Of a DNA stretch of 64,000 nucleotides, positions 3,759 to 23,195 are shown one piece after another (the first letter of the stretch is position 1; each line of letters opens with the position of its first letter). The stretch comes from Minwuia thermotolerans. GTDB taxonomy: Bacteria; Pseudomonadota; Alphaproteobacteria; Minwuiales; Minwuiaceae. Position numbers and translations under genes: made by a program. Under the pieces are notes generated by a model. The model was not told where the DNA came from. It was given only the letters and a program-made list of their open reading frames with translations, and searched no databases. The stretch is taken from the NCBI RefSeq assembly GCF_002924445.1, contig NZ_PIGG01000031.1, forward strand, positions 62,001 to 126,000, read 5' to 3'.

Positions 3759-4118
3759 TCAGGCGGCGGCGGGCCGCTGCGCCAGACCTTCCATGATGGT
3801 GCGGTTCACCGCCACGAGGTCGTCGACGCTTTCCTGGCCGCGCATCACGGCACTGGAATGACGGTCTACCCACAGCGCCAGCGAGATGATCGAGGCGCGG
3901 GTCGATTCCGGCAGCGAGTTGCCGTCCCGTGAGCAATCCGCCATCAGGGTCGACCACAGCCGCTTGTTGCGGTGGATCGCCTCGATGACGCCATTGTCAT
4001 GACGGGGCAGATCCTTGACCTCGATCAGCCGCCGCGTGATTTCGGCGAACAGGCGGTATTCGGTATCGCGCGGCGTCTCTACGACACGCTGCGCATTGCT
4101 ATACGCTCGCAGGCTCAT
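3759..4118 (-). CDS. flaF: Flagellar biosynthesis regulator FlaF
   Basis: A 119-aa cytosolic protein with the FlaF-family pattern: MSLRAYSNAQRVVETPRDTE at the N terminus, then a helical body with NKRLWSTLMADC and ALWVDRHSSAVMRG. In Caulobacter, FlaF promotes flagellin translation or secretion and acts opposite FlbT. Its start overlaps the end of flbT by 20 bases, so the two are translationally coupled. The partner position next to flbT makes the assignment firm. No flagellin gene lies beside the pair in this window. Confidence 0.9.
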   Translation of the reverse strand: MSLRAYSNAQRVVETPRDTEYRLFAEITRRLIEVKDLPRHDNGVIEAIHRNKRLWSTLMADCSRDGNSLPESTRASIISLALWVDRHSSAVMRGQESVDDLVAVNRTIMEGLAQRPAAA

Positions 4119-4503
4119 AGCTCAGTCTCTCTCTTTCGAAGTCGAGCAGGCGGCGGCACAGCGTCAGACCCTTGTAGTACTGACGGTCCATCACGCACTG
4201 GCTGATGGCGACACAATTCGCCAGGGCGTCAGCATCCGTGACGACCCCCATGAACTCCGACATGCGCAAGACGAATTCTTCGTAGAACCGCGGCCGGACC
4301 TTTTCGTCGAGATACATCGACATGATGGCGAAGTAGATTCGCTTCGCCGGTGTGTCGACGCGCTCGGGCTTCAGGATGTCCTTCTCCCGCAGGATCGACG
4401 CCTTGTTGTGCAGGACGAGGGTCGCGCGGCGGTCGCCATTGGCGATGACGGCGCCGTTGATGACGAATTTCTCGCCGGGCTTCAGGGTGAGTTTCAGCGC
4501 CAT
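4099..4503 (-). CDS. flbT: Flagellin translation regulator FlbT
   Basis: A 134-aa protein. FlbT binds flagellin mRNA and represses its translation until the hook is complete (known from Caulobacter and Brucella). The N terminus MALKLTLKPGEKFVINGAVI and the following NGDRRATLVLHNKASILRE match the FlbT family closely. I placed the start at 4503 because this is where family homology begins; the frame stays open upstream but encodes an Arg/Pro-rich stretch unlike FlbT. It overlaps flaF by 20 bases and is divergent, across about 220 bases, from a FlmG-like glycosyltransferase, which links flagellin synthesis and glycosylation. Confidence 0.93.
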   Translation of the reverse strand: MALKLTLKPGEKFVINGAVIANGDRRATLVLHNKASILREKDILKPERVDTPAKRIYFAIMSMYLDEKVRPRFYEEFVLRMSEFMGVVTDADALANCVAISQCVMDRQYYKGLTLCRRLLDFERERLSYEPASV

Positions 4504-4724
4504 GTTGCGATCCGGCCGGTCGCCCGGCCCTCCCGAGACAGTTGAACATCCATGACGGCCGCGGGCACGGCCATCGATGCGGAATCTGCGCGGGTGCGGT
4601 TGATTTATCGTTAACGCCGAACGGGTCTGGGGACGGGCGCAGAACCAGGTATTGGTTAGGACAATCTTTACCGTGGGCACCGTTTGATGCGGCTCGATCC
4701 AGTAACAACGGATGACCGTTTCCC

Positions 4725-6497
4725 ATGGCCCGACACGCCCATCTGACCAAGTCCGAACCGCTGCAACGCCCCAAGGTCGGCCGGACCATCATGCAGGGCG
4801 ACACGATCCAGATCCTGGACGCGATCGCCCGCGTCGATGACGACCGCACGCCGACCAGGGCGGAACTGAAACGCGCGATCCAGCATCTCGCCAAGGCCGG
4901 CAAGCTGTCAAACATGAACAAGTTCGTGGAGGCCTCGGCCGAACTGCTGCAGGCCCACCGGCTGGACCCGCACAACGCCGACACGTTGCTGGTGCTGGGC
5001 AACAACCTGCGCCATGCCGGCAACGTCCAGGCCGCGATCCATGTCATGGAGAAGGCCCTGAAGGCCGCCGGCGAGGATCTGGAGCTGTTGTACGGCATCG
5101 GCCTTCTGGCCCAGGATCTGGGCATGCTGGACGCTGCCGAGCGCATGTACGCCATGGTCATCCAGCGTAACCCCGACGATCCCCGCGGTCATACGGCGCT
5201 GGCCGCGGTCAAGCGCGGCAAGGGCGAGTACGACCTGGCCATCGACACGCTGAAATTCGCCATCGAGCAGTCGCAGCAGGATCCCACGCTCTGGCAGGCG
5301 CTGGGCGTCACGGTGGCTGAAGCGCGCGGCGCCGATCATGCGCGGCCGTTTTTCGAGGAGTCGCTCCGGCTCAATCCCGACTACGACCTCGCCTGGTCGA
5401 ACATGGGCCATGCCTATTCCGCCGAGGGACGCTTCGCGGAGTCCCTGCCCTTCCTGGAGAAGTCGGTGGCGCTCCGCCCCGACGACCCCGACACGCGGTT
5501 CTCCTACGCTTCCTCCCTGCTCGGCGTCGGGGAGCTGGAAAAGGGCTGGGCCGAATACGAATGGCGCCTGGACCGGCGGCGCAAGGATTCGGTCGTCTTC
5601 GTCCACGATCTGCCCCGCTGGCAGGGCGAGGACATTTCGGACAAGACCATCCTGATCTGCGACGAACAGGGCATCGGCGACGCCATCATCTTCGCCAGCG
5701 CCTATCAGGACGTCATCGAGCGCGCCGGCCACGTCATCATCGAGTGCGACCGGCGACTTGTGACCTGGTTCCAGCGCTCCTTCCCCGAGGCAACGGTCCA
5801 CCGTCACGTCACCTTCCGCTCCAACGCCAAGATCCACCGTCACTATGGCTGGCTGCGGGAAGACGGCGTGCCGCAGCCGGACCTGTTCATCCCCTCCGGT
5901 TCGATCTTCCAGCTGGTGCGCGGCGATGTGGCCAGCTTCGCCCGCAACGGCGCCTACCTGAAGCCCGACCCGGAACGGGTGGCATTCTGGCGCTCCCGTT
6001 TCGACGCCATCGGCGACGGCCCGAAGATCGGCATCTGCTGGTCCGGCGGCTTCATCACGCCGATCCGCGCCAAGGGCTACATGTCATTGATGGACTTCCA
6101 GCCCTTCTTCGACCTGCAGCAGAAGGGCGGCCATTTCGTGAACTGCATGTACAAGGACGCGCGCGAGGACTGCCGCCGCCTGGCCGACGAGAAGGGCGTC
6201 ATCCTGCACGACTGGGACGATATCGACCGCCGCGACCAGTTGGACGAGGCCGCCGCCTATACCGCCGCCCTCGATTACATGGTTTCGATCTCCTCCTCGC
6301 CGGTGGCCATCGCCGGCGCGATGCAGATTCCTGCGATCACCCTGCTGCACAAGCACGACCGCTTCCATTTCGGCGCCGGCGTCGAGCCCTGGTTTCCGAC
6401 CACGGATATCTTCGTCGCCGACCGGCCCGACGCATGGCCCGCCGTGCCCTGCGCTGCGGCCCGCAGACGCGCCGGCGAGAGGCTGGAACTGGACTGA
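4725..6497 (+). CDS. TPR-domain glycosyltransferase, FlmG-like (flagellin glycosylation)
   Basis: A 590-aa cytosolic protein with two parts. Residues about 55-282 are tandem tetratricopeptide repeats, recognisable from units such as ALAAVKRGKGEYDLAIDTLK and AWSNMGHAYSAEGRFAESL. Residues about 305-590 form a glycosyltransferase-like domain with ILICDEQGIGDAIIFASAYQ and a late nucleotide-sugar-type segment with SISSSPVAIAGAM. This layout matches Caulobacter FlmG, which binds flagellin through TPRs and transfers pseudaminic acid onto it. It is divergent from flbT/flaF and heads a run of nonulosonic-acid-type genes, so flagellin modification is the best inference. The ATG at 4725 has only a weak ribosome site; an internal Met at codon 23 is possible. 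Confidence 0.8.
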   Translation: MARHAHLTKSEPLQRPKVGRTIMQGDTIQILDAIARVDDDRTPTRAELKRAIQHLAKAGKLSNMNKFVEASAELLQAHRLDPHNADTLLVLGNNLRHAGNVQAAIHVMEKALKAAGEDLELLYGIGLLAQDLGMLDAAERMYAMVIQRNPDDPRGHTALAAVKRGKGEYDLAIDTLKFAIEQSQQDPTLWQALGVTVAEARGADHARPFFEESLRLNPDYDLAWSNMGHAYSAEGRFAESLPFLEKSVALRPDDPDTRFSYASSLLGVGELEKGWAEYEWRLDRRRKDSVVFVHDLPRWQGEDISDKTILICDEQGIGDAIIFASAYQDVIERAGHVIIECDRRLVTWFQRSFPEATVHRHVTFRSNAKIHRHYGWLREDGVPQPDLFIPSGSIFQLVRGDVASFARNGAYLKPDPERVAFWRSRFDAIGDGPKIGICWSGGFITPIRAKGYMSLMDFQPFFDLQQKGGHFVNCMYKDAREDCRRLADEKGVILHDWDDIDRRDQLDEAAAYTAALDYMVSISSSPVAIAGAMQIPAITLLHKHDRFHFGAGVEPWFPTTDIFVADRPDAWPAVPCAAARRRAGERLELD

Positions 6498-6504
6498 GGC
6501 GACG

Positions 6505-7197
6505 ATGCAGGACCTCATACCGGTTATCGTGCAGGCGCGGACGGGCTCGCAACGCTGCCCCGCCAAGGTTATGCGCGCCGTGGCCGGCCGGCGGCTGATC
6601 GACTACACCCTGGACGCGCTGGAACGCTGCCGCAGCGCCAGGCCGCTGATCGTGGCGACGTCCGACGATCCCCTGGACGACGCGCTGGCCGCCCACTGCA
6701 CGGCGCGCGGGACACCCGTGATCCGCGGCCCCCTGCTGGACGTGGCCGGCCGCTTCCGATGTGTCCTGGAACGCTTTCCCGTCCGGGCCTTCGTGCGGAT
6801 CTCCGGCGACAGCCCGCTGATCGACTACCGCATCGTCGACCGCGCTGTGGAACTGTTCCGCGCCGAACGGCCGGACCTCGTGTCCAATGTCGTCGAGCGC
6901 ACCTTCCCCAAGGGACAGTCCATCGAGGTCATCGACAGCGCCATTTTCCTCGGCGCCGAGAGCCGCATGCACGATCCCGCGGACCGCGAGCACGTGACGC
7001 CGTGGTTCTACCGCCCCGAGTCGGGCTATCGCATCGTCACCATCCGCGCCGACACTGACGCGAGCGCCACGTCGATGGTCGTCGACACCGAGGAGGAGTT
7101 CCAGCGTTTCCGGCAGGTGGCCCGCGAACTCTCCGCCCCCGCCTGGCGCTATCATTGGCACGAACTGGCGCCGAAACTGGAAGAGCGCAGCGCATGA
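6505..7197 (+). CDS. SpsF-like cytidylyltransferase (CMP-sugar activation)
   Basis: A 230-aa nucleotidyltransferase. The N terminus IPVIVQARTGSQRCPAKVM is the nucleotide-binding loop of the CMP-KDO/CMP-sialic acid synthetase fold in its SpsF (spore coat polysaccharide) branch, and SGDSPLIDYRIVDRAVEL carries the conserved metal/substrate acidic residues. Expected role: activation of the nine-carbon sugar made by the NeuB homologue as its CMP derivative, giving the donor for the TPR glycosyltransferase upstream. It starts 7 bases after that gene and its TGA overlaps the ATG of the next one (ATGA), so the three are co-transcribed. Assignment to CMP transfer rather than another nucleotide is inferred from the family and neighbours. 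Confidence 0.78.
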   Translation: MQDLIPVIVQARTGSQRCPAKVMRAVAGRRLIDYTLDALERCRSARPLIVATSDDPLDDALAAHCTARGTPVIRGPLLDVAGRFRCVLERFPVRAFVRISGDSPLIDYRIVDRAVELFRAERPDLVSNVVERTFPKGQSIEVIDSAIFLGAESRMHDPADREHVTPWFYRPESGYRIVTIRADTDASATSMVVDTEEEFQRFRQVARELSAPAWRYHWHELAPKLEERSA

Positions 7198-8201
7198 CCC
7201 CCCCCATCGCCGCGGGCGTGATCGGCCTCGGCGTCGGCGAACGCCACATCGCGGGCTATGAGCGCCATCCGGGCTGTCGCGTGACCCGCCTCGCCGACTT
7301 CTGCCCCGACAAGCGCGCCGACGTCGCCAGCCGCCATCCCGAGCGGCCGATCTCGGCGGACGCGGATGCGGTACTGGACGACCCGGAAATCGCCATCGTC
7401 TCCATCGCCAGCTACGACCAGCATCATTTCGAACAGGTCGTCCGCGCCCTCGACGCCGGCAAGCATGTCTTCGTCGAGAAGCCGGTCGTCCTGCGCGAGG
7501 ATCATGCCCGCATCGTCCGCGACAAGCTGCGCGAGAAACCGCATCTGAAACTGTCGTCGAACCTGATCCTGCGCCGTTGCCCCCGCTTCCGCTGGCTGAA
7601 GGCGGAGATCGAGGACGGCCGCTTCGGCGAGATCTTCCACATCGACGCCGACTACCAGTACGGCCGACTCCACAAGCTGCTGGGCGGCTGGCGCGGCGAC
7701 TTGCCGGGCTATTCGCTGGTGCTGGGCGGCGCGGTGCACATGATCGATCTCGTGCTCTGGCTGACCGGCGACCGCGCCGTGGAAGTCCAAGCCTATGGCA
7801 ACCGCATCGCCACCCGCGGCAGCGGCTTCGCCAATCACGATCTGGTCCAGGCGATCGTGCGCTTCGAGAGCGGCATGGTGGCCAATATCGGCTGCAATGG
7901 CGGCTGCGTGAAGCCCCACTTCCACAAGCTGGAGGTCTACGGCACCGCGGCCAGCTTCGTTAACCGTTTGGAAAGCGCGTTTGTTTACCGTTCCCGTGAT
8001 CCCGGCATGGAGCCGGAGGCGATCACGGAGGCTTATCCCGGTGTCGACAAGGGCGATCTTCTGCACGATTTCGTGGACGCGGTCATCGAAGACCGTGAGC
8101 CGGAGGTAGGCGTCGATGGGATATTCAGCGCCCTCGCCGTCTGCTTCGCCATCGAACGCGCCGTCCACAGCGGACGCGCGGAGCCCGTCCGCTCCTTCTG
8201 A
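7194..8201 (+). CDS. Gfo/Idh/MocA-family oxidoreductase
   Basis: A 335-aa NAD(P)-dependent sugar oxidoreductase. The Rossmann start AAGVIGLGVGERHIAGYERH, the EKPVVLREDHA motif with its catalytic-region Lys, and LGGAVHMIDLVLWL (the His of the GGxxxH motif) are all present. I used the ATG that overlaps the previous stop (7194) because the Rossmann strand begins right after it; the open frame further upstream is only the shadow of the preceding gene. Family members oxidise or reduce ring hydroxyls of nucleotide sugars, so here it probably shapes a precursor of the nonulosonic acid. The exact substrate cannot be told from sequence. Confidence 0.85.
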   Translation: MTPPIAAGVIGLGVGERHIAGYERHPGCRVTRLADFCPDKRADVASRHPERPISADADAVLDDPEIAIVSIASYDQHHFEQVVRALDAGKHVFVEKPVVLREDHARIVRDKLREKPHLKLSSNLILRRCPRFRWLKAEIEDGRFGEIFHIDADYQYGRLHKLLGGWRGDLPGYSLVLGGAVHMIDLVLWLTGDRAVEVQAYGNRIATRGSGFANHDLVQAIVRFESGMVANIGCNGGCVKPHFHKLEVYGTAASFVNRLESAFVYRSRDPGMEPEAITEAYPGVDKGDLLHDFVDAVIEDREPEVGVDGIFSALAVCFAIERAVHSGRAEPVRSF

Positions 8202-9351
8202 ACCGAAGGAAATCCACTTCGGGCGCCCGATCCTGGGCGAGGAGGAGCGCCGCGCGGTGCTCGACGTGCTCGACAGCCCGCAGCTCGTCCACGGCCCCCG
8301 CGCCGTCGCCTTCGAGAATGATTTCGCCGGCTGGTGCGGCGGCGGCGAGGCGGTCAGCGTTTCCTCCTGCACCGCCGGCCTGCATCTCGCCTGGTTCCAG
8401 ATGGGTCTCGGTGAAGGCGACGAGGTGATCGTTCCCGCCCAGACCCACACCGCCACGGCCCACGCCGTCGAGTATGTCGGCGCGAAGCCTGTCTTCGTCG
8501 ACGCCGAGCCGGTCACGGGCAACGCCGACCTGGAACAGATCGAAGCCGCCATAAACGAGCGCACCAAGGCGATCTCCGTGGTGCACTATCTCGGCATGCC
8601 GGTCGACATGCGCCGCCTGAACGCGATCGCGTCGAGGCACGGCCTGCCGGTCATCGAGGACGCGGCGCTCGCCATCGGCTCCACTGTCGACGGCATCCAC
8701 GCCGGCCTGCTGGGCGATCTCGGCTGCTTTTCCTTCTATCCGGTCAAGCACATGACCACCGCCGAGGGCGGCATGGTTCTGACCCGCGATGCCGGCATCG
8801 CCGAGCGCATCCGCCGCCAGAAGGCCTTCGGCCTGGACCGCACGGTAGTCGAACGCGCCGAGCCCGGCGTCTACGATGTCACCCAGCTCGGCTTCAACTA
8901 CCGCATGAACGAGCTCCAGGCGGCCATCGGCATCGAGCAGATCAAGCGTCTCGAGGGCTTCCTCGCCGCGCGCCACCGCAACTACTGGCATCTCGAGACG
9001 GGCCTGAAGGAAATCGACGAACTCGATCTCCTTCGCTCCAGCCATGACGGCCTGGAAAGCAGCCACTACTGCCTGAGCGCGATCCTGAAGGGCCCCGCCG
9101 AGGGCCGCCGTTCGGAGATCGTGGCGGCGCTGAAGGCGCAGGGCGTCGGCAGCTCGGTCTACTACCCCGGCCCAGTCCCGGCGCTCGGCTACTACCGCGA
9201 CAAGTACGGCCTGAAGGCCGAGGATTTTCCCAACGCGACCCGCATCAGCCGCCAGTCGATCGCGCTGCCGGTCGGGCCGCACCTGGACGAGGACGACATG
9301 GACCGAATTACGCAAGCGATGAAGAGGGCGATCCACGATGTCTGCAACTGA
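8116..9351 (+). CDS. DegT/DnrJ/EryC1 PLP-dependent sugar aminotransferase
   Basis: A 411-aa PLP enzyme that adds an amino group to a keto sugar. The motif CFSFYPVKHMTTAEGGM contains the PLP-binding Lys (K211), and EDAALAIGS carries the cofactor-contacting Asp region. The fold proper begins at about residue 31 (KEIHFGRPILGEEE). The ATG at 8116 lies 86 bases inside the upstream gene, but it has GGAGG at suitable spacing, and there is no ATG, GTG or TTG between it and the domain, so the enzyme seems to carry a 30-residue Ser/Pro/Ala-rich extension. In pseudaminic or legionaminic acid synthesis the equivalent enzyme (PseC/LegC) makes the 4-amino sugar. Its stop overlaps the next gene by 14 bases. 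Confidence 0.88.
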   Translation: MGYSAPSPSASPSNAPSTADARSPSAPSEPKEIHFGRPILGEEERRAVLDVLDSPQLVHGPRAVAFENDFAGWCGGGEAVSVSSCTAGLHLAWFQMGLGEGDEVIVPAQTHTATAHAVEYVGAKPVFVDAEPVTGNADLEQIEAAINERTKAISVVHYLGMPVDMRRLNAIASRHGLPVIEDAALAIGSTVDGIHAGLLGDLGCFSFYPVKHMTTAEGGMVLTRDAGIAERIRRQKAFGLDRTVVERAEPGVYDVTQLGFNYRMNELQAAIGIEQIKRLEGFLAARHRNYWHLETGLKEIDELDLLRSSHDGLESSHYCLSAILKGPAEGRRSEIVAALKAQGVGSSVYYPGPVPALGYYRDKYGLKAEDFPNATRISRQSIALPVGPHLDEDDMDRITQAMKRAIHDVCN

Positions 9352-10429
9352 TCATCCCCTGAAGGGGCGCAAGGTCGCCATCATCGGCGGCGCCGGCTTC
9401 ATCGGCCACAACATGGCGCTGACCATGAAGCGGGCCGGCGTCGACGTCGCCGTCGTCGACAGCCTGGGCGTAAACAACTACTACGCCATCGAGCGGGAGC
9501 GGTACACGAACCCCAACGGCGAGATCTATCTCAACTTCATCAAGCAGCGCATGAACCTGCTGCACGAGGCGCGCGTGCCTTTCGTGGAGATGGACGCCCG
9601 CGACTATCACGGTCTGTCGGAGACGATGGAGGACCTGAACCCGGACGCCATCATCCACCTGGCCGCAGTGGCGCACGCCAACCGCTCCAACAAGGATCCC
9701 TACTCCACATTCGACCACTCGCTGCGCACGCTGGAGAACGCCCTCGACGTGGCCCGCTCATCGCGGCTGAACGTCGACCGGTTCGTCTACTTCTCCTCGT
9801 CGATGGTCTACGGCACCTTCGCCGACGGCGTGGTCGACGAGGAAACCTCGTGCAACCCGCTCGGCATATACGGCGCGCTGAAGTTCGCGGGCGAGAAGAT
9901 GGTGATCGCCTACAATCAGGTCTTCGGACTGCCGTTCACCATCATCCGCCCCTCGGCGCTCTATGGCGAGCGCTGCGTCAGCCGCCGGGTCGGCCAGGCG
10001 CTGATCGAGAACGCGCTGCGCGGCAACACGCTGACCATCAACGGCGACGGCTCCGACTGCCTGGACTTCACCTATGTCCAGGACCTGATCGGCGGGGTCA
10101 TGGGCGCGCTGACCTCGAAGGACGCGGCCAACGAGATCTTCAACCTGACCTATGGCGACGCGCGCTCGCTCAATCAGATGGTCGACATCATCCGACAGCA
10201 TTTCCCCGGCATCGACGTGAAGCACAATCCGCGCGACAGCCTGATGCCGGAACGCGGCACGCTGAACGTCGACAAGGCGCGCTCGCTGATCGGCTACGAT
10301 CCGCAGTATCCGCTGGAGCGGGGCTTCGTCGACTACATCGACTGGTACAAGGCGAACTGGGACCAGCTCAACCAGGGCGGCGTCGATGCCGGCCAGGTCG
10401 TCTATCTGACCCGCCGCGCCTGGGCATGA
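9338..10429 (+). CDS. NAD-dependent epimerase/dehydratase (extended SDR)
   Basis: A 363-aa extended short-chain dehydrogenase acting on a nucleotide sugar. It has the NAD-binding GGAGFIGHNMAL near residue 17, the FVYFSSSMVYG strand and the catalytic YGALK. The serine-rich SSSMVYG motif resembles epimerases more than 4,6-dehydratases, which carry an Asp-Glu pair in this strand. It overlaps the aminotransferase by 14 bases and its stop overlaps the next ATG, within the glycosylation operon. Likely substrates are UDP-GlcNAc-derived sugars, by analogy with the neighbours; the reaction (epimerisation, reduction or dehydration) is not settled. Confidence 0.85.
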   Translation: MSATDHPLKGRKVAIIGGAGFIGHNMALTMKRAGVDVAVVDSLGVNNYYAIERERYTNPNGEIYLNFIKQRMNLLHEARVPFVEMDARDYHGLSETMEDLNPDAIIHLAAVAHANRSNKDPYSTFDHSLRTLENALDVARSSRLNVDRFVYFSSSMVYGTFADGVVDEETSCNPLGIYGALKFAGEKMVIAYNQVFGLPFTIIRPSALYGERCVSRRVGQALIENALRGNTLTINGDGSDCLDFTYVQDLIGGVMGALTSKDAANEIFNLTYGDARSLNQMVDIIRQHFPGIDVKHNPRDSLMPERGTLNVDKARSLIGYDPQYPLERGFVDYIDWYKANWDQLNQGGVDAGQVVYLTRRAWA

Positions 10430-11124
10430 ACGACGCCCCGGCAATGGCGCTGCAGCCCGATTCATGGCTGAGCGGAATGATCGGGAAACCGGCCTGGCAC
10501 CTCACGCCGACCGGCCGGGAACTCGATCGCGTGCCATTGCCCGGGGACGGGCCCTGCTTTGTCGACGTCAAGGCGCCGGCCAACGACGTCGAAACCGTGG
10601 GTCGCGTGGAGAATGCCGGATTCCGGCTGGTCGACACCAATCTGCAGCTCGAGCGGCCGGCCTGGCCGGTGGCCCGCAGCCGCACCGGGCGCTTCGCCAT
10701 GCCCGACGACCGGGCCGCCGTGGAACGGCTGGCCGAAAGCGCCTTCACCTATTCGCGCTTCCATCTGGATCCGCTCATCCCGCGTTCGACGGCCGACCGG
10801 ATCAAGCGGGCCTGGGCGGGGAATTATTTCGACGGCAGGCGCGGCGACCACATGGTCGTCTCGGAAATCGACGGCGAGATCGCCGGCTTCCTGCAGCTTT
10901 TCCAGCAGGGCGACCTGCTGGTCATCGACCTGGTGGCCGTCAACAGCCGCTTCCGCGGCCGCGGCCTGGCCTCCGACATGCTGGCCTTCGCCGAATCGAC
11001 AATCCCGGATCTCGGCCGCGTGAAGGTCGGCACCCAGGCCGCCAATGCGCGGGCCCTGCACGCCTACAGCCGCGACAAGTTCCGGATCATCTCCGCCACC
11101 TACGTTTTCCATTATCACGGGTAG
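10426..11124 (+). CDS. GNAT-family N-acetyltransferase (PseH/LegH-like role)
   Basis: A 232-aa protein whose C-terminal half, residues about 95-232, is a GCN5-type acetyltransferase: VAVNSRFRGRGLASDML is the acetyl-CoA-binding R-x-x-G-x-G/A loop. The N-terminal 90 residues are not a recognised domain and resemble the non-catalytic half of other sugar N-acyltransferases. In pseudaminic and legionaminic acid pathways a GNAT enzyme acetylates the 4-amino group, and this gene sits between the epimerase (ATGA overlap) and the nonulosonate synthase (5-base gap), so that role fits. A different acyl donor is possible because a dedicated AMP-ligase/carrier protein ends the operon. Confidence 0.75.
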   Translation: MNDAPAMALQPDSWLSGMIGKPAWHLTPTGRELDRVPLPGDGPCFVDVKAPANDVETVGRVENAGFRLVDTNLQLERPAWPVARSRTGRFAMPDDRAAVERLAESAFTYSRFHLDPLIPRSTADRIKRAWAGNYFDGRRGDHMVVSEIDGEIAGFLQLFQQGDLLVIDLVAVNSRFRGRGLASDMLAFAESTIPDLGRVKVGTQAANARALHAYSRDKFRIISATYVFHYHG

Positions 11125-11129
11125 AGCCC

Positions 11130-12143
11130 ATGCGGATCGCCAGCCACGACACCGACCAGCGCGCCTTTGTCATCGCCGAAGTCGGCAACAACCACGAGGG
11201 CGATTTCGGCCTGGCGAAGGAAATGGTCCATCTCGCCGCCGACGCCGGCGTCGACGCCGTCAAGTTCCAGACCTTCCGCACGGAGCAGTTCATCGCGGCC
11301 GAGGACGCCGTCCGTTTCCAGCGCCTGAAGGGCTTCGAACTGAGCTACGACCAGTTCGCCGCACTGGGCGAACTGGCCCGGGCCGAGGGCCTTTCCTTCA
11401 TCTCGACGCCGCTGGACATGGAAAGCGCTGCCTTCCTGGACGGTCATGTCGACGCCTTCAAGATCGCCAGTTCCGATAACAATTTCTGGCCGCTGATCGA
11501 CTTCGTCGCCGGCCGGGAAATGCCTACCATCTTCTCGACCGGGCTTGCCGACATGGCCCTGGTTCGGCAGGCCGCGGACAGGATTCACGGCCTCTGGGCC
11601 GACCGTGGCGTGGCGCCCGGCCTGGGCGTGCTGCACTGCGTCTCCGCCTATCCGACCCCGCCCGAGGCGGCCAATGTCCGCGCCGTCGCGGCCATGCAGG
11701 CCGCCCTGCCCGATTGCGCCGTGGGCTATTCCGACCACACCCAGGGAATCGACGCAGCGGTCGTCGCCGTCGCAATCGGCGCGCGCATCGTCGAGAAGCA
11801 TTTCACTATCGCGCATGACCATTCCGACTTCCGCGACCATCAGCTCTCCGCCGATCCCGCGGAAATGAAGGCGCTGGTGGAGCGCATCCGCCTGACCGAG
11901 ACCCTGCTTGGCGACGGCCGCGTGGCCATGGCCGATTGCGAGCGCGACGCGGCGCCGCTGATCAGGCGCTCCATCGCGGCGAAGAAGCCGCTCCACCCCG
12001 GCCATGTCGTCGGCGAAGACGACCTGGTCTGGGTCCGTCCCGGCGACGGTTTCCCCCCCGGCGAGGAAGACCGCGTCATCGGCCGCACGCTGACCGCGGC
12101 CATGGCCCCGGGCCAGCGCTTCGCGCCCGATCTGCTGGCCTGA
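11130..12143 (+). CDS. neuB: NeuB-family nonulosonic acid synthase
   Basis: A 337-aa TIM-barrel enzyme that condenses phosphoenolpyruvate with a six-carbon amino sugar to make a nine-carbon acid. Family marks: FVIAEVGNNHEGDFGLAKEM with the metal/PEP site, DAVKFQTFRTEQF, FISTPLD, LHCVSAYPTP and VEKHFTI. The C-terminal 60 residues form the antifreeze-like SAF domain (SIAAKKPLHPGHVVGEDD). Sequence alone does not separate NeuB, PseI and LegI; the neighbouring aminotransferase and GNAT favour a diamino acid (Pse or Leg type) over plain sialic acid. The ATG at 11130 follows the acetyltransferase stop by 5 bases. Confidence 0.93.
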   Translation: MRIASHDTDQRAFVIAEVGNNHEGDFGLAKEMVHLAADAGVDAVKFQTFRTEQFIAAEDAVRFQRLKGFELSYDQFAALGELARAEGLSFISTPLDMESAAFLDGHVDAFKIASSDNNFWPLIDFVAGREMPTIFSTGLADMALVRQAADRIHGLWADRGVAPGLGVLHCVSAYPTPPEAANVRAVAAMQAALPDCAVGYSDHTQGIDAAVVAVAIGARIVEKHFTIAHDHSDFRDHQLSADPAEMKALVERIRLTETLLGDGRVAMADCERDAAPLIRRSIAAKKPLHPGHVVGEDDLVWVRPGDGFPPGEEDRVIGRTLTAAMAPGQRFAPDLLA

Positions 12144-12149
12144 CCGCCG

Positions 12150-13973
12150 ATGTGCGGCATCGCCGGACATATCGGCCCGGTCGCGCCGCCACCGCCGCGC
12201 ATTCAGGCAGCCTTCCGCGCCCTGCACCGGCGCGGCCCGGACGCGCGCGGGCTGTTCCAGACCCATGAAGGCGCCGCTGCGGTCACGCTGCTGCACACCC
12301 GGCTCGCCATCATCGACCTCGACCGGCGGTCCAACCAGCCCTTCCGCCGCGGCGGCCTGACCCTGGTCTTCAACGGCGAGATCTACAACCACGTCGAACT
12401 GCGCCGGGAGCTCGAGGCGCTGGGCGCGCGCTTTGTCACGCGTTCCGACACCGAGGTGCTGCTGGAAGCTTACCGTCGCTGGGGCGAGGGCTGCGTCGAC
12501 CGGCTGGAAGGCATGTGGGCCTTCGCCATTCATGACGCCGATCGCCACCGGCTGTTCGTCTCCCGCGACCCGTTCGGCGAAAAGCCGCTGCTCTGGCGCA
12601 ATGGCCCCGACGGCTTCCACTTCGCCTCCGAGATCGCCGGCCTGGCCGCACTGAGCGGCGAACGGCCCGAGGTCGAGCGGGAGACCGTGCGCCGCTTCCT
12701 GGTGAACGGCTACAAGTCCCTCTACAAGTCCGACGCCCTGTTCCACCGCGGGGTGAAGGAGCTGCCGCCCGGCTGCAATCTCACCGTCGGCGGCAATGGC
12801 GACGTCGAGATCGCGCGCTACTGGCGGCCCCGCTACACACCTGACGCCGCCTTGACCTTCGCGGAAGCCGTGGAAGGCGTACGCCATCATCTCTCGGAGA
12901 GCATGCGCCTCAGGCTCCGCGCCGACGTGCCCATCGCCTTCTGCCTGTCAGGCGGCGTCGACAGTGCGGCGCTGGCCTCCTTCGCGGCAAAGCATCACGG
13001 CGCGGACGTCGCGACCTTCTCCATCATCGATCCCGACCCGCGCTACGACGAGAGCGGCAACATCCGCGCGACTGTGGACGACCTGGGCTGCCGCCACCGC
13101 GAGATCCGCCTGTCGCAATCGTCGGACCTCGACCGTTTCGCCGAGCTCGTCGGCTATCACGGCAAGCCCGTGGCCACCGCGTCCTATTACGTCCACAGCC
13201 TGCTGTCGGAGGCGATGCGGGAGCAGGGCTTCAAGGTCGCCGTCTCCGGCACCGGCGCGGACGAGTTGGTCACCGGCTATTACGACCACTTCAACCTGCA
13301 CCTGCACGCCATGCGCAATCACCCCGACCGCGCGGCGCGGCTGCAGGACTGGCAGACGCATCTCGCGCCGATCGTGCGCAACCCGCACCTGCAGAATCCC
13401 GGACTCTACGACGCCGACCCGGACTTCCGCGGCCACATCTACCTCAATGCGGATGTCTTCTCCGACTATCTGACCGAGCCCTTCCGGGAGGACTTCACCG
13501 AGGAACCGCTCTCCGGCGACCTGCTGCGCAACCGCATGCTGAACGAGCTATGCGTCGAGGCCGTGCCGATCATCGTCCGGGAGGACGACCTCAATTCCAT
13601 GCGCTCCTCGATCGAGAACCGCAGTCCCTATCTGGACCGCGCCCTCTGCGACTTCGCCTACACCATCCCGCCCGAGCACCTGATCCGCGACGGCTACGCC
13701 AAGGCGCCCCTGCGCGAGGCGGCGAAGGACGTGCTCAACGACACGGTTCGCCTGGACCGGCACAAGAAGGGGTTCAATGCCGCCTTCCGCAGCCTCTTCG
13801 ATCTCGACACCCCGAAGACGCGGGAGCGCATCCTGGACGACGGCCCGATCTTCGACATCGTCCGCCGCGAGAAGGTCGAGGAAGCCATGGGCCGCGCGGA
13901 GCTGCCCAACAGTTTCTCGAAGTTCCTCTTCTCCTTCGTCTCCGCCAAGCTGTTCATGGAGCAATGGGCATGA
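12150..13973 (+). CDS. asnB: Asparagine synthase-like, glutamine-hydrolysing amidotransferase
   Basis: A 607-aa two-domain enzyme. Cys2 after the start Met is the glutamine amidotransferase nucleophile (MCGIAGHIG), with FNGEIYNHVELR and the RSDTEVLLEAY loop of class II glutaminases; the second half has the ATP pyrophosphatase loop SGGVDS at 267-272. Ordinary AsnB makes asparagine, but paralogues in surface-glycan loci amidate carboxylates or supply ammonia. It overlaps the next gene, a sugar amidotransferase, by four bases (ATGA), and such pairs are common in glycan loci, which argues for a sugar or acyl-group amidation role. Bulk asparagine synthesis cannot be excluded. Confidence 0.85.
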   Translation: MCGIAGHIGPVAPPPPRIQAAFRALHRRGPDARGLFQTHEGAAAVTLLHTRLAIIDLDRRSNQPFRRGGLTLVFNGEIYNHVELRRELEALGARFVTRSDTEVLLEAYRRWGEGCVDRLEGMWAFAIHDADRHRLFVSRDPFGEKPLLWRNGPDGFHFASEIAGLAALSGERPEVERETVRRFLVNGYKSLYKSDALFHRGVKELPPGCNLTVGGNGDVEIARYWRPRYTPDAALTFAEAVEGVRHHLSESMRLRLRADVPIAFCLSGGVDSAALASFAAKHHGADVATFSIIDPDPRYDESGNIRATVDDLGCRHREIRLSQSSDLDRFAELVGYHGKPVATASYYVHSLLSEAMREQGFKVAVSGTGADELVTGYYDHFNLHLHAMRNHPDRAARLQDWQTHLAPIVRNPHLQNPGLYDADPDFRGHIYLNADVFSDYLTEPFREDFTEEPLSGDLLRNRMLNELCVEAVPIIVREDDLNSMRSSIENRSPYLDRALCDFAYTIPPEHLIRDGYAKAPLREAAKDVLNDTVRLDRHKKGFNAAFRSLFDLDTPKTRERILDDGPIFDIVRREKVEEAMGRAELPNSFSKFLFSFVSAKLFMEQWA

Positions 13974-15121
13974 GCGTCCGTTTCTGTCAGAGCTGCGTCC
14001 TGCCCGACAGCCGTCCCGGCATCGAGATCGGCGCGGACGGGGTCTGCAATGCCTGCAAGGGCCACAGCGACAACCGTTCGAGCATCGACTGGGCCGGGCG
14101 CGGCCAGGCCCTGGAACGGCTCTTCCGCGGCGCGAAGGCGCGCAAGGCGGCCTATGACTGCATCGTCCCCGTCTCCGGCGGCAAGGACAGCTTCTGGCAG
14201 GTCGCCAAGTGTCTCGAGATGGACATGAAGGTGCTCGCCGTGACCTGGCGCTCGCCGGGCCGCAACGCCCTGGGCCAGGCCAACCTGGACCGGTTGGTGG
14301 CGCTGGGTGTCGACCATATCGATTTCTCGATCGATCCGTCCGTCGAGGCGCGGTTCATGAAGAAGACGCTGATCGAGACCGGGTCCAGCGCCGTGCCCAT
14401 GCACCTCGCCATCTTCGCCATCCCCATGCGGATCGCCGTGCAGATGCGCGTGCCGCTGATCGTCTGGGGCGAGAGCCCGTTCATGGAGTATGGAGGGCAG
14501 AAGGGCGACAGCGACCTGGACCTGTTGAACCACGCCTGGCTGAAGCGCCACGGCATCCTGCAGGGCCGGGAGGCGCTGGACTGGGCCGGCGACGAGCTGA
14601 CCACCGCCGAGCTGGCGGCCTACTGCCCGCCCGCGGAGGAGGAGTTCCGGCAGGCGCAGGTCCGCTCCATCTTCATGGGCTACTATCTGCAGTGGGATCC
14701 GGCCGAGAGCCTGCGCGTCGCCGAGGCCAATGGCTTCCGCCGCCGCCCCGAGGGCCCCAAGATCGGCCTCTACGACTATGCCGACATCGACTGCGACTTC
14801 ATCTCCGTCCACCACTGGTTCAAGTGGCCGAAATTCGGCTTCACGCGGCTGTTCGACAATCTGGCGCTGGAGATCCGCAATGGCCGGATGAGCCGCGACG
14901 AGGCACTGGCCATCATCGGGCGGCTGGGCGATCAGCGGCCCGACGCCGACATCGCCCGCGCCTGCGATTTCATGGGACTCTCGGCGGCCGAGTTCGCCGC
15001 ACTGGAGGAAAAGTTCCGCGACCATGATGTCTGGACGGCGCGCGACGGCCGCTGGATCATTGACGGCTTCCCCGTCGAGAGCCGGGACTGGCCGGCTGTG
15101 CCGATGGAGCGCGCCGCATGA
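13970..15121 (+). CDS. N-acetyl sugar amidotransferase (PseA/WbpG type)
   Basis: A 383-aa enzyme of the family that converts an N-acetyl group on a sugar into an acetamidino group: PseA in Campylobacter makes acetamidino-pseudaminic acid and WbpG acts in Pseudomonas O-antigen. Two CxxC pairs (C6/C9 and C26/C29) look like a zinc site and VSGGKDS at 68-74 is the ATP pyrophosphatase loop. ATGA overlap with asnB gives the start at 13970; an in-frame ATG two codons earlier is also possible. No HisH/HisF-like ammonia partner is nearby, so the AsnB-like neighbour may supply nitrogen. This suggests that the final nonulosonic acid carries an amidino group. Confidence 0.85.
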   Translation: MSVRFCQSCVLPDSRPGIEIGADGVCNACKGHSDNRSSIDWAGRGQALERLFRGAKARKAAYDCIVPVSGGKDSFWQVAKCLEMDMKVLAVTWRSPGRNALGQANLDRLVALGVDHIDFSIDPSVEARFMKKTLIETGSSAVPMHLAIFAIPMRIAVQMRVPLIVWGESPFMEYGGQKGDSDLDLLNHAWLKRHGILQGREALDWAGDELTTAELAAYCPPAEEEFRQAQVRSIFMGYYLQWDPAESLRVAEANGFRRRPEGPKIGLYDYADIDCDFISVHHWFKWPKFGFTRLFDNLALEIRNGRMSRDEALAIIGRLGDQRPDADIARACDFMGLSAAEFAALEEKFRDHDVWTARDGRWIIDGFPVESRDWPAVPMERAA

Positions 15122-15462
15122 GGCTGGCGGAAAGGAATCCCCCGCGTGTGTTCGAGCCCGCGCCCGGCATTGCCATCAGCGACTGCGGCGATGTCGAGCT
15201 GCGGCCGGACGAGCAGGTCACGCTGGTGACCGAGGCCGGCAAGCGCATGGATGTGGCTGCCAGGGATTTCGGCTTCTACGCCACGCCGTCCGTGAACGGC
15301 CGGCTGAAATCGGAGGGCTTCAAGACGGCCCTGGTCCGCAATGCGCGCGGGCAGGTCTACGTCATGGTCGTCGACAGCGACCGTATGGCGGATTTCGACC
15401 GCTATTGCGCCTCGGAGCGGCAGACGGTGCTGGAGTGGCTGGATGAACGCCCCCTGGACTGA
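15118..15462 (+). CDS. Unknown 114-aa protein in the glycosylation operon
   Basis: No family is recognised. The predicted protein is soluble, mostly beta-like, without signal peptide, membrane segment or cysteine-rich motif; a conserved-looking core is DFGFYATPSVNGRLKSEGFK followed by TALVRNARGQVYVMVVD. It begins with an ATGA overlap on the sugar amidotransferase and overlaps the ligase gene by 20 bases, so it is translated as part of this pathway and its codon use matches its neighbours. It could be a small carrier-associated or structural subunit of the enzyme before or after it. No function is claimed. Confidence 0.7.
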   Translation: MRLAERNPPRVFEPAPGIAISDCGDVELRPDEQVTLVTEAGKRMDVAARDFGFYATPSVNGRLKSEGFKTALVRNARGQVYVMVVDSDRMADFDRYCASERQTVLEWLDERPLD

Positions 15463-17995
15463 GGACACCATCCAGGGCGTGCTCGCCGCCAACCGGCTGC
15501 GCGAGGACGGGCGCCCGTTCCTGACGTTGATCGAGGCGGACGGGCGCGAACGCGTCTTCACCTATTCCGAACTGCTGGAGCGCGCCGAATGCTGGGCTGC
15601 GCATTTCGCGGGCCACGGAATCGTTCAGGGTGACCGCGTTGTCGTGATCCTGCGCCACAGCGTCGACCTCTACGCCGCCTATATCGGCGCGCTGCTGCTG
15701 GGCGCGGTGCCGACCATGTTCGCCCACCCCTCGCCCAAGCTCTCGGAGGCCGTCTATTTCGAGACCATCGGGACGCTGCTCACCGGCAGCCGCGCCAGGG
15801 CGCTGGTCACCTATGACGAACTTGCGCCGAAGCTGACGCCGCTGGTGAACAGGATCGGCAGCTTCGAGCATCTGGCGACGCCCGACGACATCGACCCGGA
15901 ACACCGCGATCATCCCGCACCTTCAGTGGCGCCGGACGACGCCGCCTTCCTGCAATACTCGTCGGGCACGACGGGACTGAAGAAGGGCGTCGTCATCAGC
16001 CACCGCGCCCTGCTCTGGCAGATCCGGACCTATGGCGAGACCATCGGCGCCGACGAACGCGACACCATCGTCTCCTGGCTGCCGCTCTATCACGACATGG
16101 GCCTGATCGCGTGCTTCTTCCTGCCGCTGATCCGCCGCTGCCGGCTGGTCGCCATGTCGCCGTTCGACTGGGTACAGAGGCCCGGCCTGTGGCTCGACGC
16201 GGTGACAAGACACAAGGGCACGCTCGGCTGGCTGCCGAACTTCGCCTACGCCTTCATGGCGAGGAATGCGCCGGAATACGATTGGGAGCTGTCGAGCCTG
16301 CGCGGCGTGGTCAATTGCTCGGAGCCGGTGACCGCAGCGGCGCACGCCGCCTTCCTCGACCGCTTCCGCGCCCACGGCTTCCGCGAGGATGCGCTGGCCG
16401 CCTCCTACGCCATGGCCGAAGCGACCTACGCCGTCACGTCGGGCGGCTTCGGCGAACCCCTCCGGTCGGTCGAGCGGGATGGACGCCGGCTCGTCTCGTC
16501 CGGCGTTGTGTTGCCGGGCACCGAGGTCCGCATACTGGGCGATGATGGGCAGGTGCTGCCCGACGGCGCGACAGGCGAGATCGAGATCCTCTCGCACTCG
16601 CTCTTCCGCGAATACGATGGCAACCTGGAGGCGACGGCCGAGGCGCTGAAGGATGGCCGGTATCTCAGCGGCGATCTGGGCTGCCTGTTGGACGGGCATC
16701 TCTACGTCACCGGCCGCAAGCGCGACCTGATCATCATCGGCGGCAAGAACATCTACCCTCACGACATCGAGGCGCTGGCCGAAGGCGTGGACGGAATCAC
16801 GCCGGGCCGGAGCGTCGCGCTCGGCGAGGCCGACGACGCCGCCGGCACGCAGCATCTGCTGGTGCTGGCCGAAAGTGACCGCCCCGAAGCCGATTGGGCG
16901 GGCCTGTCGGAAACCGTAAGGGCCACGGTCGCCGCGGCCACCGAGGTCAGTCCGCGCGCCGTCCATATCGTGCCGCCGCGCTGGCTGAGGAAATCGACCT
17001 CCGGGAAGCTGGCCCGCAGCGCCAATCTGGAGCGCTACCGCGCCGAGTTCGCGCCGAAGCCCGCGGCCCCGGCCATCGCCCCGGCTACCACGCTGGAGCG
17101 CGTCCGCCAGGTGGTGAACGGCCAGATCCTGAGCGCCGGGCGAGCGGAGGATCACGAACCGCTGATCCGCTCCGGCCGCATCGACAGCTTCTCAATCGTC
17201 AATCTGGTGCTGGAAATCGAGCGGGCCTTCGACATCCGCCTGCCCGAGAGCGTGGCCGCCGACCCGGATGCCCTCGACACGATCGCCGCCATCGCAGCGA
17301 CCGTCGAGCGCCTGAAGGACGGCGGCATCGGCGGCGAGACCGCCTTCGACTTCGGCCCCGACGACGTGCCCATGCGCGCCGACGGGCCGGTCGCGCTTTC
17401 GTCGCGCCGACCCGGCTTCTGGACCTGGTACTACCGCTTCCGCCTCCGGACCCTCGGCGTCCGCCATGGCCGGGGCCTCCGTGTACTGGGCCCGCTCCTG
17501 CTCCGGCTCGAGGGAAATCCGCGCAATCTCAGCATCGGCGACGGGGTCACGATCATGCCCTGGGCCGATCTGAAGGTGCGCGAGAACGGGAAAATCACCA
17601 TCGGTGACGGCTGCGCCATCGACACCATGGCCCGGCTGGTGGCGGCGAACGACGCCGAGATCCGCCTCGGCGACCGCGCCCAGATCGCCTTTTCCTCGAT
17701 CATCAACGCCGGCGAGAACGTCACCATCGGCCGCGACACGGCGACCGCCGGCCACTGCACCATCATCGCTTCCGAGCACAACTATCGCGGGCGCGAGCCC
17801 ATCATGCACCAGGGCTACCGGCATGAACCGGTGCTGATCGGCGCCGACGTCTGGCTGGCCTCCAACGTGCTGGTCACGCCGGGCGCGAAGATCGGCAATG
17901 GCGCGGTGATCTCGGCGCGATCCACCGTGACGGGCACGATCCCGCCCTATGCGCTGGCCGCCGGCGTGCCCGCGCGGGTGATCGGCGCGCGCTGA
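15443..17995 (+). CDS. Three-domain AMP-ligase / acyl carrier / left-handed beta-helix acyltransferase
   Basis: An 850-aa cytosolic fusion. Residues 1-540: adenylate-forming ligase with phosphate loop YSSGTTGLKKG (172-182), the LPLYHDMGL motif (213-221) typical of fatty acyl-AMP ligases, YLSGDLG (407-413) and the catalytic-loop TSGK (Lys at about 522). Residues 550-625: carrier protein; S582 in GRIDSFSIVNLVLEIE is the likely phosphopantetheine site. Residues 690-850: hexapeptide repeats of a left-handed beta-helix acyltransferase, with SEHN (777-780) near the probable active His and the end PYALAAGVPARVIG. The inferred scheme is activation of an acid, loading on the internal carrier and transfer to a sugar amine. 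It overlaps the 114-aa gene by 20 bases and ends the operon. Confidence 0.85.
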   Translation: MNAPWTEDTIQGVLAANRLREDGRPFLTLIEADGRERVFTYSELLERAECWAAHFAGHGIVQGDRVVVILRHSVDLYAAYIGALLLGAVPTMFAHPSPKLSEAVYFETIGTLLTGSRARALVTYDELAPKLTPLVNRIGSFEHLATPDDIDPEHRDHPAPSVAPDDAAFLQYSSGTTGLKKGVVISHRALLWQIRTYGETIGADERDTIVSWLPLYHDMGLIACFFLPLIRRCRLVAMSPFDWVQRPGLWLDAVTRHKGTLGWLPNFAYAFMARNAPEYDWELSSLRGVVNCSEPVTAAAHAAFLDRFRAHGFREDALAASYAMAEATYAVTSGGFGEPLRSVERDGRRLVSSGVVLPGTEVRILGDDGQVLPDGATGEIEILSHSLFREYDGNLEATAEALKDGRYLSGDLGCLLDGHLYVTGRKRDLIIIGGKNIYPHDIEALAEGVDGITPGRSVALGEADDAAGTQHLLVLAESDRPEADWAGLSETVRATVAAATEVSPRAVHIVPPRWLRKSTSGKLARSANLERYRAEFAPKPAAPAIAPATTLERVRQVVNGQILSAGRAEDHEPLIRSGRIDSFSIVNLVLEIERAFDIRLPESVAADPDALDTIAAIAATVERLKDGGIGGETAFDFGPDDVPMRADGPVALSSRRPGFWTWYYRFRLRTLGVRHGRGLRVLGPLLLRLEGNPRNLSIGDGVTIMPWADLKVRENGKITIGDGCAIDTMARLVAANDAEIRLGDRAQIAFSSIINAGENVTIGRDTATAGHCTIIASEHNYRGREPIMHQGYRHEPVLIGADVWLASNVLVTPGAKIGNGAVISARSTVTGTIPPYALAAGVPARVIGAR

Positions 17996-21404: not shown

Positions 21405-23195
21405 ATGATCGCGCGCCGCATCATACCGAAGTTCCTGTCGGTGACGGAAAACGTCAGCCGGGGCATGACCGTTGCCGGTCTGGCCCATGGCGCGGCACTC
21501 GGCGTTCTGATCGTGGCCGCGCCCCAGCTCTTCGACCGCGATCTCGACCGTTTCGCGTCGCCGATCTCGATCCAGATCTTCGAGGGCGTCTACCAGCAGC
21601 CTGAGCCGCAGAACGTGCTGCGCATCGAGCCGGATCTGCCCGCGGCCATCTCTGTGGAGACCGCCATCGAATCCAGCGACCCCGACCCGCCCGAAGGCGC
21701 GGTCCCCAGGCCGGAGAATGCGCCCGAGATCGCCCTGCCCGATGTGCGCCCGGCCGCGATCGAGGCCGCCCGCCGCGCGCCCCGTCCGGCGGACGCCGGC
21801 GCCGCCCCCGAGCCCGCCGCGCCGGGCGACGTCGCCCTGATCTACGAACGCGGCGCGCCGCTGACCCCGGACGAGGAAAGAGGACAGCGAGAGACACCTG
21901 ACGCATCGCGCCTGCAGGACCGCGAGCGGCTGCCCGAGAACGCGCGCGCGATCGAGGCCGAGATCCGCCGTCTGGAAGCCATGAAGGCGCAGGCCGTGGT
22001 CGAACAAAAACTCGCCGCTGCCCGCAAGCAGGAGGCTGCGGCGCGCAACGCCGAGGAGCGGCTGGCGGCCATGCAGCGCCGGCTCGAGCGGCTGCAGATC
22101 GCCAGGGCCGAAGCGCGCGTGCCCCGGATCGAGCCGCCCGATCGCGCGGCTCCGGAAGCCCCGCGCGAGGTCGCCCAGGACGCGCGGACGCGCGCCACCC
22201 TCACACCCGATGCGGCGATGCCGGAGAAGGCGGCGGAAGTCCTGGAACGCTCCGAGAGGCGCGAAAAACAGGATGACGCACTGACACCGGCCGAACGGGA
22301 AAGGGCGCGCCAGGCCGTCGAGCGTTATCGCAAGGCCGCCCAGGAAGGCATTCCCGCCGCGGAGATGAACCTCGCCCGCGCCCTCGACCGCGGTGATGGC
22401 GTCGAGAAGGATCGCGCCAAGGCCCGCTCAATCATGGAGGACCTCGCCGAGAAGGGCTACGAGCCGGCCCAGATCGAACTGGCGAAGAAGCACCTGACCG
22501 GCGATGGTGTGGAGGAAAGTCGCAAGAAGGCCTACATCCTGCTGAAGAACGCTGCGGAGGAGGACAACGTGGTGGCCCGCCGCGCGCTCAGGGCGCTGCG
22601 CGACGAGATGAGCCTGGAGGAGCGCCAGCAGGCTGAGCGGGAAGCTGCCAACCGGCGGCGGAAGATCGAACAGCAGCACGCGGAGAAGCGTCTGCCGCCG
22701 GCGCGCCAGAAGGCGCTGGACGAAAACCTGCGCGAGGCCGTCGACCACGGGAATATCGGCAAGATGGAGACGCTGCTGCGCGCCGGCGCCGATCCCAACG
22801 CGATCGATGCTTCCGGCCGGGACGCCATCATCGCCGCCGCCTGGCGCGGACGCGAGATGGTGGTGGAATTCCTGATCGAGAAGGGTGTCGACATCGACAC
22901 AGTCGATCTGGATGGCCGCACCCCGCTTGCATGGGCCGCCATCAATGGCTACGTGCATATCGTCGAGGATCTGCTGGCCCACGGCGCCGACCCGAACGCC
23001 CGTGACGACACGGGCACGACGCCGCTGATCCGGGCGGCGTGGAATGGCCACTTCGAAGTCGCCGAAACGCTGCTGAACGGCGGCGCCAACCCCTTGATCG
23101 AGGATCGGCAGGGCAAGACCGCGCTCGACCGGGCGCAGGAAGAATCCTGGCCCCGCGTGGTCCGGCTTCTGGAAGGACGCATCTCGGCCAACTGA
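21405..23195 (+). CDS. Membrane-anchored Sel1 and ankyrin repeat protein
   Basis: A 596-aa protein with unusual order. Residues 21-41 are one hydrophobic segment after a short positively charged start, and the anchor plus following strand (HGAALGVLIV, then ISIQIFEG) resembles TonB/TolA N termini, so the rest probably faces the periplasm. Residues 60-180 are Pro/Glu/Ala-rich, 180-235 a charged coiled coil, 305-398 Sel1-like repeats (MNLARALDRGDGVEKDRAKA and a second unit), and 437-590 ankyrin repeats (LLRAGADPNAIDASGRDAI, LLAHGADPNARDDTGTTPL). The function is unknown, probably a protein-binding scaffold at the envelope. It starts 135 bases after moaA and 25 bases before mgtC. Confidence 0.8.
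   Translation: MIARRIIPKFLSVTENVSRGMTVAGLAHGAALGVLIVAAPQLFDRDLDRFASPISIQIFEGVYQQPEPQNVLRIEPDLPAAISVETAIESSDPDPPEGAVPRPENAPEIALPDVRPAAIEAARRAPRPADAGAAPEPAAPGDVALIYERGAPLTPDEERGQRETPDASRLQDRERLPENARAIEAEIRRLEAMKAQAVVEQKLAAARKQEAAARNAEERLAAMQRRLERLQIARAEARVPRIEPPDRAAPEAPREVAQDARTRATLTPDAAMPEKAAEVLERSERREKQDDALTPAERERARQAVERYRKAAQEGIPAAEMNLARALDRGDGVEKDRAKARSIMEDLAEKGYEPAQIELAKKHLTGDGVEESRKKAYILLKNAAEEDNVVARRALRALRDEMSLEERQQAEREAANRRRKIEQQHAEKRLPPARQKALDENLREAVDHGNIGKMETLLRAGADPNAIDASGRDAIIAAAWRGREMVVEFLIEKGVDIDTVDLDGRTPLAWAAINGYVHIVEDLLAHGADPNARDDTGTTPLIRAAWNGHFEVAETLLNGGANPLIEDRQGKTALDRAQEESWPRVVRLLEGRISAN

Follow-up and report, generated by a model that had tools for sequence, protein, structure and literature searches.

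The last gene of a sugar cassette in Minwuia thermotolerans joins an acyl-AMP ligase-like region, a carrier region and an acyltransferase region, which raises the question of what such a chain transfers, by which route and to which acceptor. The initial annotation of the 64,000-nucleotide stretch of contig NZ_PIGG01000031.1 analysed here (the window) had proposed a chain of 850 residues that activates, carries and delivers an acyl group to a sugar amine without coenzyme A (CoA). The open frame is intact at 15443–17995 (Table 1), and its start is supported by alignment, the MNAPW N-terminus being conserved in every orthologue. All three proposed domains were recovered by independent methods, the domain search placing Pfam AMP-binding, PP-binding (phosphopantetheine carrier) and Hexapep matches at residues 34–391, 569–620 and 797–831, respectively. 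The fusion is under purifying selection in all of them, with dN/dS values against the Minwuia locus L032 of 0.17 for the ligase domain, 0.11 for the carrier and 0.15 for the acyltransferase. A structure model of the full-length chain was obtained with a mean pLDDT of 76.7.

Table 1. Features of the fusion gene, its cassette and related fusions; coordinates are those of the window unless a locus is named.
Feature	Position	Strand	Evidence or remark
FlaF flagellin secretion protein	3759..4118	-	PF07309, 1e-33
FlbT flagellin regulator	4099..4509	-	PF07378, 6e-44
TPR protein of 590 aa, candidate flagellin glycosyltransferase with a layout like that of FlmG	4725..6497	+	TPR in N-terminal half
Cytidylyltransferase, candidate CMP-sugar synthase	6505..7197	+	PF02348
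Gfo/Idh/MocA oxidoreductase	7194..8201	+	profile match
DegT/PseC-like sugar aminotransferase	8116..9351	+	profile match; start uncertain
NAD-dependent sugar epimerase/dehydratase	9338..10429	+	profile match
GNAT acetyltransferase, WecD/RffC-like	10426..11124	+	profile match
NeuB-type nonulosonic acid synthase	11130..12143	+	PF03102, NeuB_NnaB
Asparagine-synthase-like amidotransferase	12150..13973	+	profile match
WbuX-type N-acetyl sugar amidotransferase	13970..15121	+	TIGR03573, above its cut-off
Conserved 114-aa protein	15118..15462	+	overlaps fusion gene by 20 bases
Whole fusion gene, FAAL-ACP-LbH acyltransferase	15443..17995	+	850 aa, intact open frame
FAAL domain	15443..17047	+	residues 1-535; Pfam AMP-binding, FAAL NCBIfam models, best Foldseek matches FAALs
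FAAL-specific helix PFDWVQR	16160..16180	+	residues 240-246, aligned with EcFAAL T252-R258
FAAL-specific insertion site	16448..16486	+	residues 336-348; shortened; alignments
Acyl carrier domain	17090..17332	+	residues 550-630; Pfam, NCBIfam, model
S582 codon, expected phosphopantetheine site	17186..17188	+	invariant DSF motif
Linker, carrier to beta-helix domain	about residues 628-690		low pLDDT, disordered/flexible in model
Hexapeptide (left-handed beta-helix family) O-acyltransferase domain	17510..17992	+	residues 690-850; homology
H779, candidate catalytic histidine	17777..17779	+	invariant; aligned with TGH histidine of galactoside acetyltransferase
FAAL-ACP didomain + SGNH/GDSL	L031 (G405) 9424-12435		Pfam 1.7e-9
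FAAL-ACP didomain + C-terminus without Pfam family	L029 (G129) 4180-7029		short GSS-type motifs
FAAL-ACP didomain + C-terminus without Pfam family	L030 (G356) 10508-13408		short GSS-type motifs

Fatty acyl-AMP ligases (FAALs) are defined by a CoA pocket filled by bulky residues, a FAAL-specific helix and a second pocket with prolines along its wall (Patil et al., PMC8460268), which in EcFAAL correspond to W224, M231 and F279, to the helix T252–R258 and to P107/P226 (PMC8460268). The adenylation domain of the fusion, which matches Pfam AMP-binding with an E-value of 1.3e-61 and has fatty acyl-AMP ligase models among its best NCBIfam matches, carries W212, M219 and F267 at the three CoA-blocking positions of the alignment and P96 and P214 at those of the pocket prolines, with P240 in addition replacing Thr252. 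The FAAL-like motif LPLYHDMGL, already pointed out in the initial annotation, lies at residues 213–221. In the structure model, where pLDDT is mostly 80–96 over this domain, a helix is predicted at residues 240–245, within the FAAL-specific helix. A Foldseek search with the full model gave the Synechococcus Ols FAAL as best match (E 3.8e-43), and FAALs accounted for 22 of the best 24 structures, ahead of CoA ligases, the remaining two being McyG. Three CoA-ligase-like paralogues from the M. thermotolerans genome that aligned properly (L003, L004 and L007) have neither the Trp, nor the Met, nor the FAAL-specific helix; L002, L005, L006 and L008, whose reading frames had been misplaced, were left out of this comparison. 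Reading the domain as a CoA ligase was rejected, given its blocked CoA pocket and the presence of the helix. By its sequence hallmarks and predicted fold, the adenylation domain is thus a FAAL and not a CoA ligase, and this anatomy supports the CoA-independent activation proposed at the outset.

The FAAL-specific insertion is approximately 15 residues shorter in M. thermotolerans and in L032 than in the Minwuia loci L014, L015 and L018 and in distant relatives. Since the insertion is less important than the helix for CoA rejection (Patil et al., PMC8460268), we do not read its shortening as a loss of FAAL character. The shortening is restricted to this species and L032, the rest of the genus keeping the full insertion. 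A second, stand-alone FAAL, about 37–38% identical, is present in the same genome (L033, G000 contig C24, 4412–6037 and 8683–10191) and clusters with an asparagine-synthase-like gene.

The carrier assignment, likewise borne out, rests on sequence evidence because the structural matches of this domain are weak: Foldseek returned DltC, PltL and glycine-carrier proteins with probabilities of 0.75–0.99 but E-values of about 0.5–2. The Pfam PP-binding model scores 19.0 bits in the window protein, just under its cut-off of 20.8, and exceeds this cut-off in the orthologues of L014 (26.8 bits) and L015 (22.6 bits), while the isolated carrier stretch matches DltC and ACP models. S582, which the initial annotation had placed in the phosphopantetheine position, is conserved without exception across the five full-length orthologues, and the predicted helix II (582–596) starts with it, as in carriers. 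Phosphopantetheinylation of this serine would allow delivery of the acyl group within the chain, a proposal that the domain anatomy, as predicted, supports.

The identification of the C-terminal domain as a hexapeptide acyltransferase holds, with a Pfam Hexapep match at 7.5e-10, WbbJ as the best NCBIfam model (5e-22), followed by WcaF and others including galactoside O-acetyltransferase, and clear similarity to solved O-acetyltransferases. A profile of the carrier and acyltransferase regions matched those acting on maltose (2.9e-28), galactoside (1.7e-26) and polysialic acid (9.6e-20), the last match spanning the whole helix (residues about 690–849). H779 is kept also in two stand-alone WbbJ-like relatives encoded by the same genome. 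Homology supports the beta helix, but the model, of middling confidence here (pLDDT mostly 64–86), does not confirm its handedness; left-handed beta-helix structures were absent among the Foldseek matches listed. By homology, the domain therefore belongs with those hexapeptide acyltransferases that are sugar O-acetyltransferases.

This family relationship bears on the acceptor, for which a sugar amine had been put forward. Nonulosonic-type sugars are known to bear unusual N-acyl groups, 3-hydroxybutyryl among them, and after the same loading steps the beta-helix domain could acylate an amine like the LegH/PglD/VioB-type N-acyltransferases, leaving an unusual N-acyl group on a nonulosonic acid. 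The domain does match the NeuD/PglB/VioB family, although weakly (36.8 bits), and the profile that recognised the O-acetyltransferases gave much weaker matches with N-acetyltransferases (QdtC, 3.6e-11; perosamine N-acetyltransferase, 3e-9). The cassette moreover encodes a GNAT acetyltransferase that can serve the amine and is more likely to carry out N-acylation. Given these family relationships and the available GNAT enzyme, we favour O-acylation and consider transfer to an amine rather unlikely, with the caveat that this ranking rests on family closeness and that hexapeptide enzymes change acceptor easily.

The gene context supports the sugar pathway suspected by the initial annotation, as the fusion is the last gene of a tight cassette for nonulosonic acid, headed by the TPR protein and with several overlapping start and stop codons. 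A point against this reading is that the cassette lacks the hydrolysing 2-epimerase with which nonulosonic acid synthesis usually proceeds, one PF02350 protein being encoded elsewhere in the genome. The cassette also contains no ketoacyl-ACP reductase gene, no PKS/NRPS gene and no other evident user of acyl-ACP. A longer NeuB frame (10464–12143) was discarded, its N-terminal 220 residues being the GNAT gene read in another frame and not a domain. The asparagine-synthase-like amidotransferase directly 5' of WbuX perhaps forms with it an ammonia-supplying pair for an acetamidino sugar (12150–15121, + strand). The 114-aa protein encoded between WbuX and the fusion, possibly a partner of this pair, is 79–96% identical across orthologous Minwuia loci; neither Pfam nor NCBIfam matched it, and PHROGs gave nothing convincing. 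Further downstream, 3' of moaA, the window encodes a 596-aa protein with ankyrin and Sel1 repeats (21405–23195, + strand).

In Caulobacter, FlmG (glycosyltransferase domain 309–596) attaches nonulosonic acid to flagellin (PMC7591256), and the TPR protein of the window resembles it in size and layout. Three flagellin-family matches above cut-off were found in the genome. Because the nonulosonic-acid cassette lies beside flaF and flbT and contains the FlmG-like TPR protein, flagellin glycosylation with a nonulosonic acid is the likely setting of the fusion. The loading module might instead feed the beta-helix domain for a non-flagellar substrate, such as a lipid or a sugar of LPS or capsule, and the nearest families, WbbJ and WcaF, do modify surface polysaccharides. 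Such a role is unlikely, as gene overlaps and strict conservation tie the fusion to NeuB, WbuX and the TPR protein at five further loci of the genus, whose cassette order is the same, and flaF and flbT adjoin the cassette both here and in L032. Least probable is a CoA-dependent acetyltransferase merely fused to a FAAL-ACP that serves another enzyme: characterised sugar O-acetyltransferases of the hexapeptide kind use acetyl-CoA, but the fusion and its linker are conserved across the genus and the cassette offers no evident alternative user of acyl-ACP.

Taken together, these observations incline us, if only by a little, to propose that the fusion is a self-contained, CoA-independent O-acyltransferase for a sialic-, legionaminic- or pseudaminic-like nonulosonic sugar used on flagellin. 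In the order of steps that we infer, the FAAL domain would convert a free carboxylic acid and ATP to an acyl-AMP, CoA not being usable, and the acyl group would then pass to the phosphopantetheine arm on S582 of the chain's own carrier domain. The carrier arm would cross the flexible linker to the beta-helix domain, where H779 would assist the attack of a sugar hydroxyl on the thioester, and the TPR protein encoded at the head of the cassette would finally attach the acylated sugar to flagellin.

Each part of this arrangement has known counterparts. The fusion shares its CoA-rejecting hallmarks, its fold and a fused carrier with FAALs and FAAL-ACP didomains (EcFAAL 3PBK, FadD32, Ols FAAL 7R7E); those, however, feed PKS/NRPS lines, whereas in Minwuia the carrier precedes an acyltransferase of the sugar type and, in M. 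thermotolerans, the insertion is shortened. E. coli Aas also combines activation and acyl transfer in one chain and acts on lipids. The beta-helix domain and the candidate catalytic histidine are shared with WbbJ, LacA and the polysialic acid enzymes NeuO/OatWY, which are stand-alone and acetyl-CoA dependent, whereas the Minwuia domain is fused to a carrier. LpxA and LpxD are beta-helix acyltransferases that acylate a sugar nucleotide with groups delivered by ACP; their ACP is free, and their sequence match to the Minwuia domain is weak (28.5 bits). In Pls/PosA-type NRPS enzymes, A-T domains are followed by hexapeptide-like acyltransferase folds; membership of the fusion in the terminal-domain family of these enzymes (TIGR02353) was rejected (22.7 bits against a cut-off of 423.1).

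Comparable sets of genes occur unfused. Group II flagellin glycosylation islands of Aeromonas (pseudaminic acid) contain separate ACP and AMP-dependent synthetase genes together with a ketoacyl-ACP reductase (PMC7874193), and the O1-specific genes of Yersinia ruckeri, in strains additionally equipped with a cluster for legionaminic acid, include an AMP-dependent synthetase and an acyl carrier (PMC5552943). These are the same kinds of genes as in Minwuia, where they are fused, and one Minwuia chain appears to do, without CoA, what other bacteria seem to split among separate enzymes. The statement of the initial annotation that no enzyme with this exact order was described agrees with the open-licence literature, in which we found no description of a FAAL-ACP-hexapeptide enzyme, in a nonulosonic acid cassette or otherwise, but FAAL-ACP didomains and FAAL-lysophospholipid acyltransferase fusions are already on record (PMC8460268). 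The latter likewise unite activation and transfer in one chain; their acyltransferase acts on lipids and is no beta-helix sugar enzyme.

Matches to the fusion are present in six of the seven Minwuia genomes, one of them gapped, and full-length fusions were found in Minwuia only. The complete gene is syntenic in four other genomes of the genus and is interrupted in a fifth (L016, the sixth Minwuia genome counted with this one), where what looked like a frameshift is a run of Ns marking an assembly gap and not a mutation. The acyltransferase domain alone, searched at an E-value of 1e-20 in 190 genomes of the class, gave matches only in Minwuia. Searches of 385 genomes of the class, 398 of the phylum and 48 of a second class yielded further strong FAAL-carrier relatives only in G129, G356 and G405; the thresholds were strict (1e-100 to 1e-110) and may have excluded fusions of greater divergence; a gammaproteobacterial contig (L017) provided a fourth, and the plasmid collection a single stand-alone FAAL relative. 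The C-termini of these four FAAL-carrier relatives are not hexapeptide. That of G405 is of the SGNH/GDSL type, and in G129 and G356 the short GSS-type motifs, judged by eye only, suggest SGNH. The G129 fusion is flanked by two TPR proteins on one side and by an adenosine deaminase on the other.

SGNH domains are reported to act with membrane acyltransferases in the O-acylation of bacterial surface sugars (PMC7448272, PMC12148441), which makes a common loading module with swappable delivery domains a reasonable idea. We tentatively raise the possibility, which we regard as doubtful at present, that FAAL-ACP is a general module for CoA-free acyl loading, combined with interchangeable sugar-acylating domains: a beta helix in Minwuia and SGNH/GDSL in other proteobacteria. 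If true, such a plug-in module would give bacteria a way, separate from PKS/NRPS metabolism, to decorate the sugars of their surface.

Should the proposed role of the Minwuia fusion be correct, it would allow a single chain to furnish a bacterial sugar with a chosen acyl group independently of CoA, and could serve as a compact enzyme for producing acylated sialic-acid-like sugars. It would also add protein glycosylation to the lipid and natural-product roles of FAALs, and it offers a testable route to undescribed flagellin modifications in Alphaproteobacteria.
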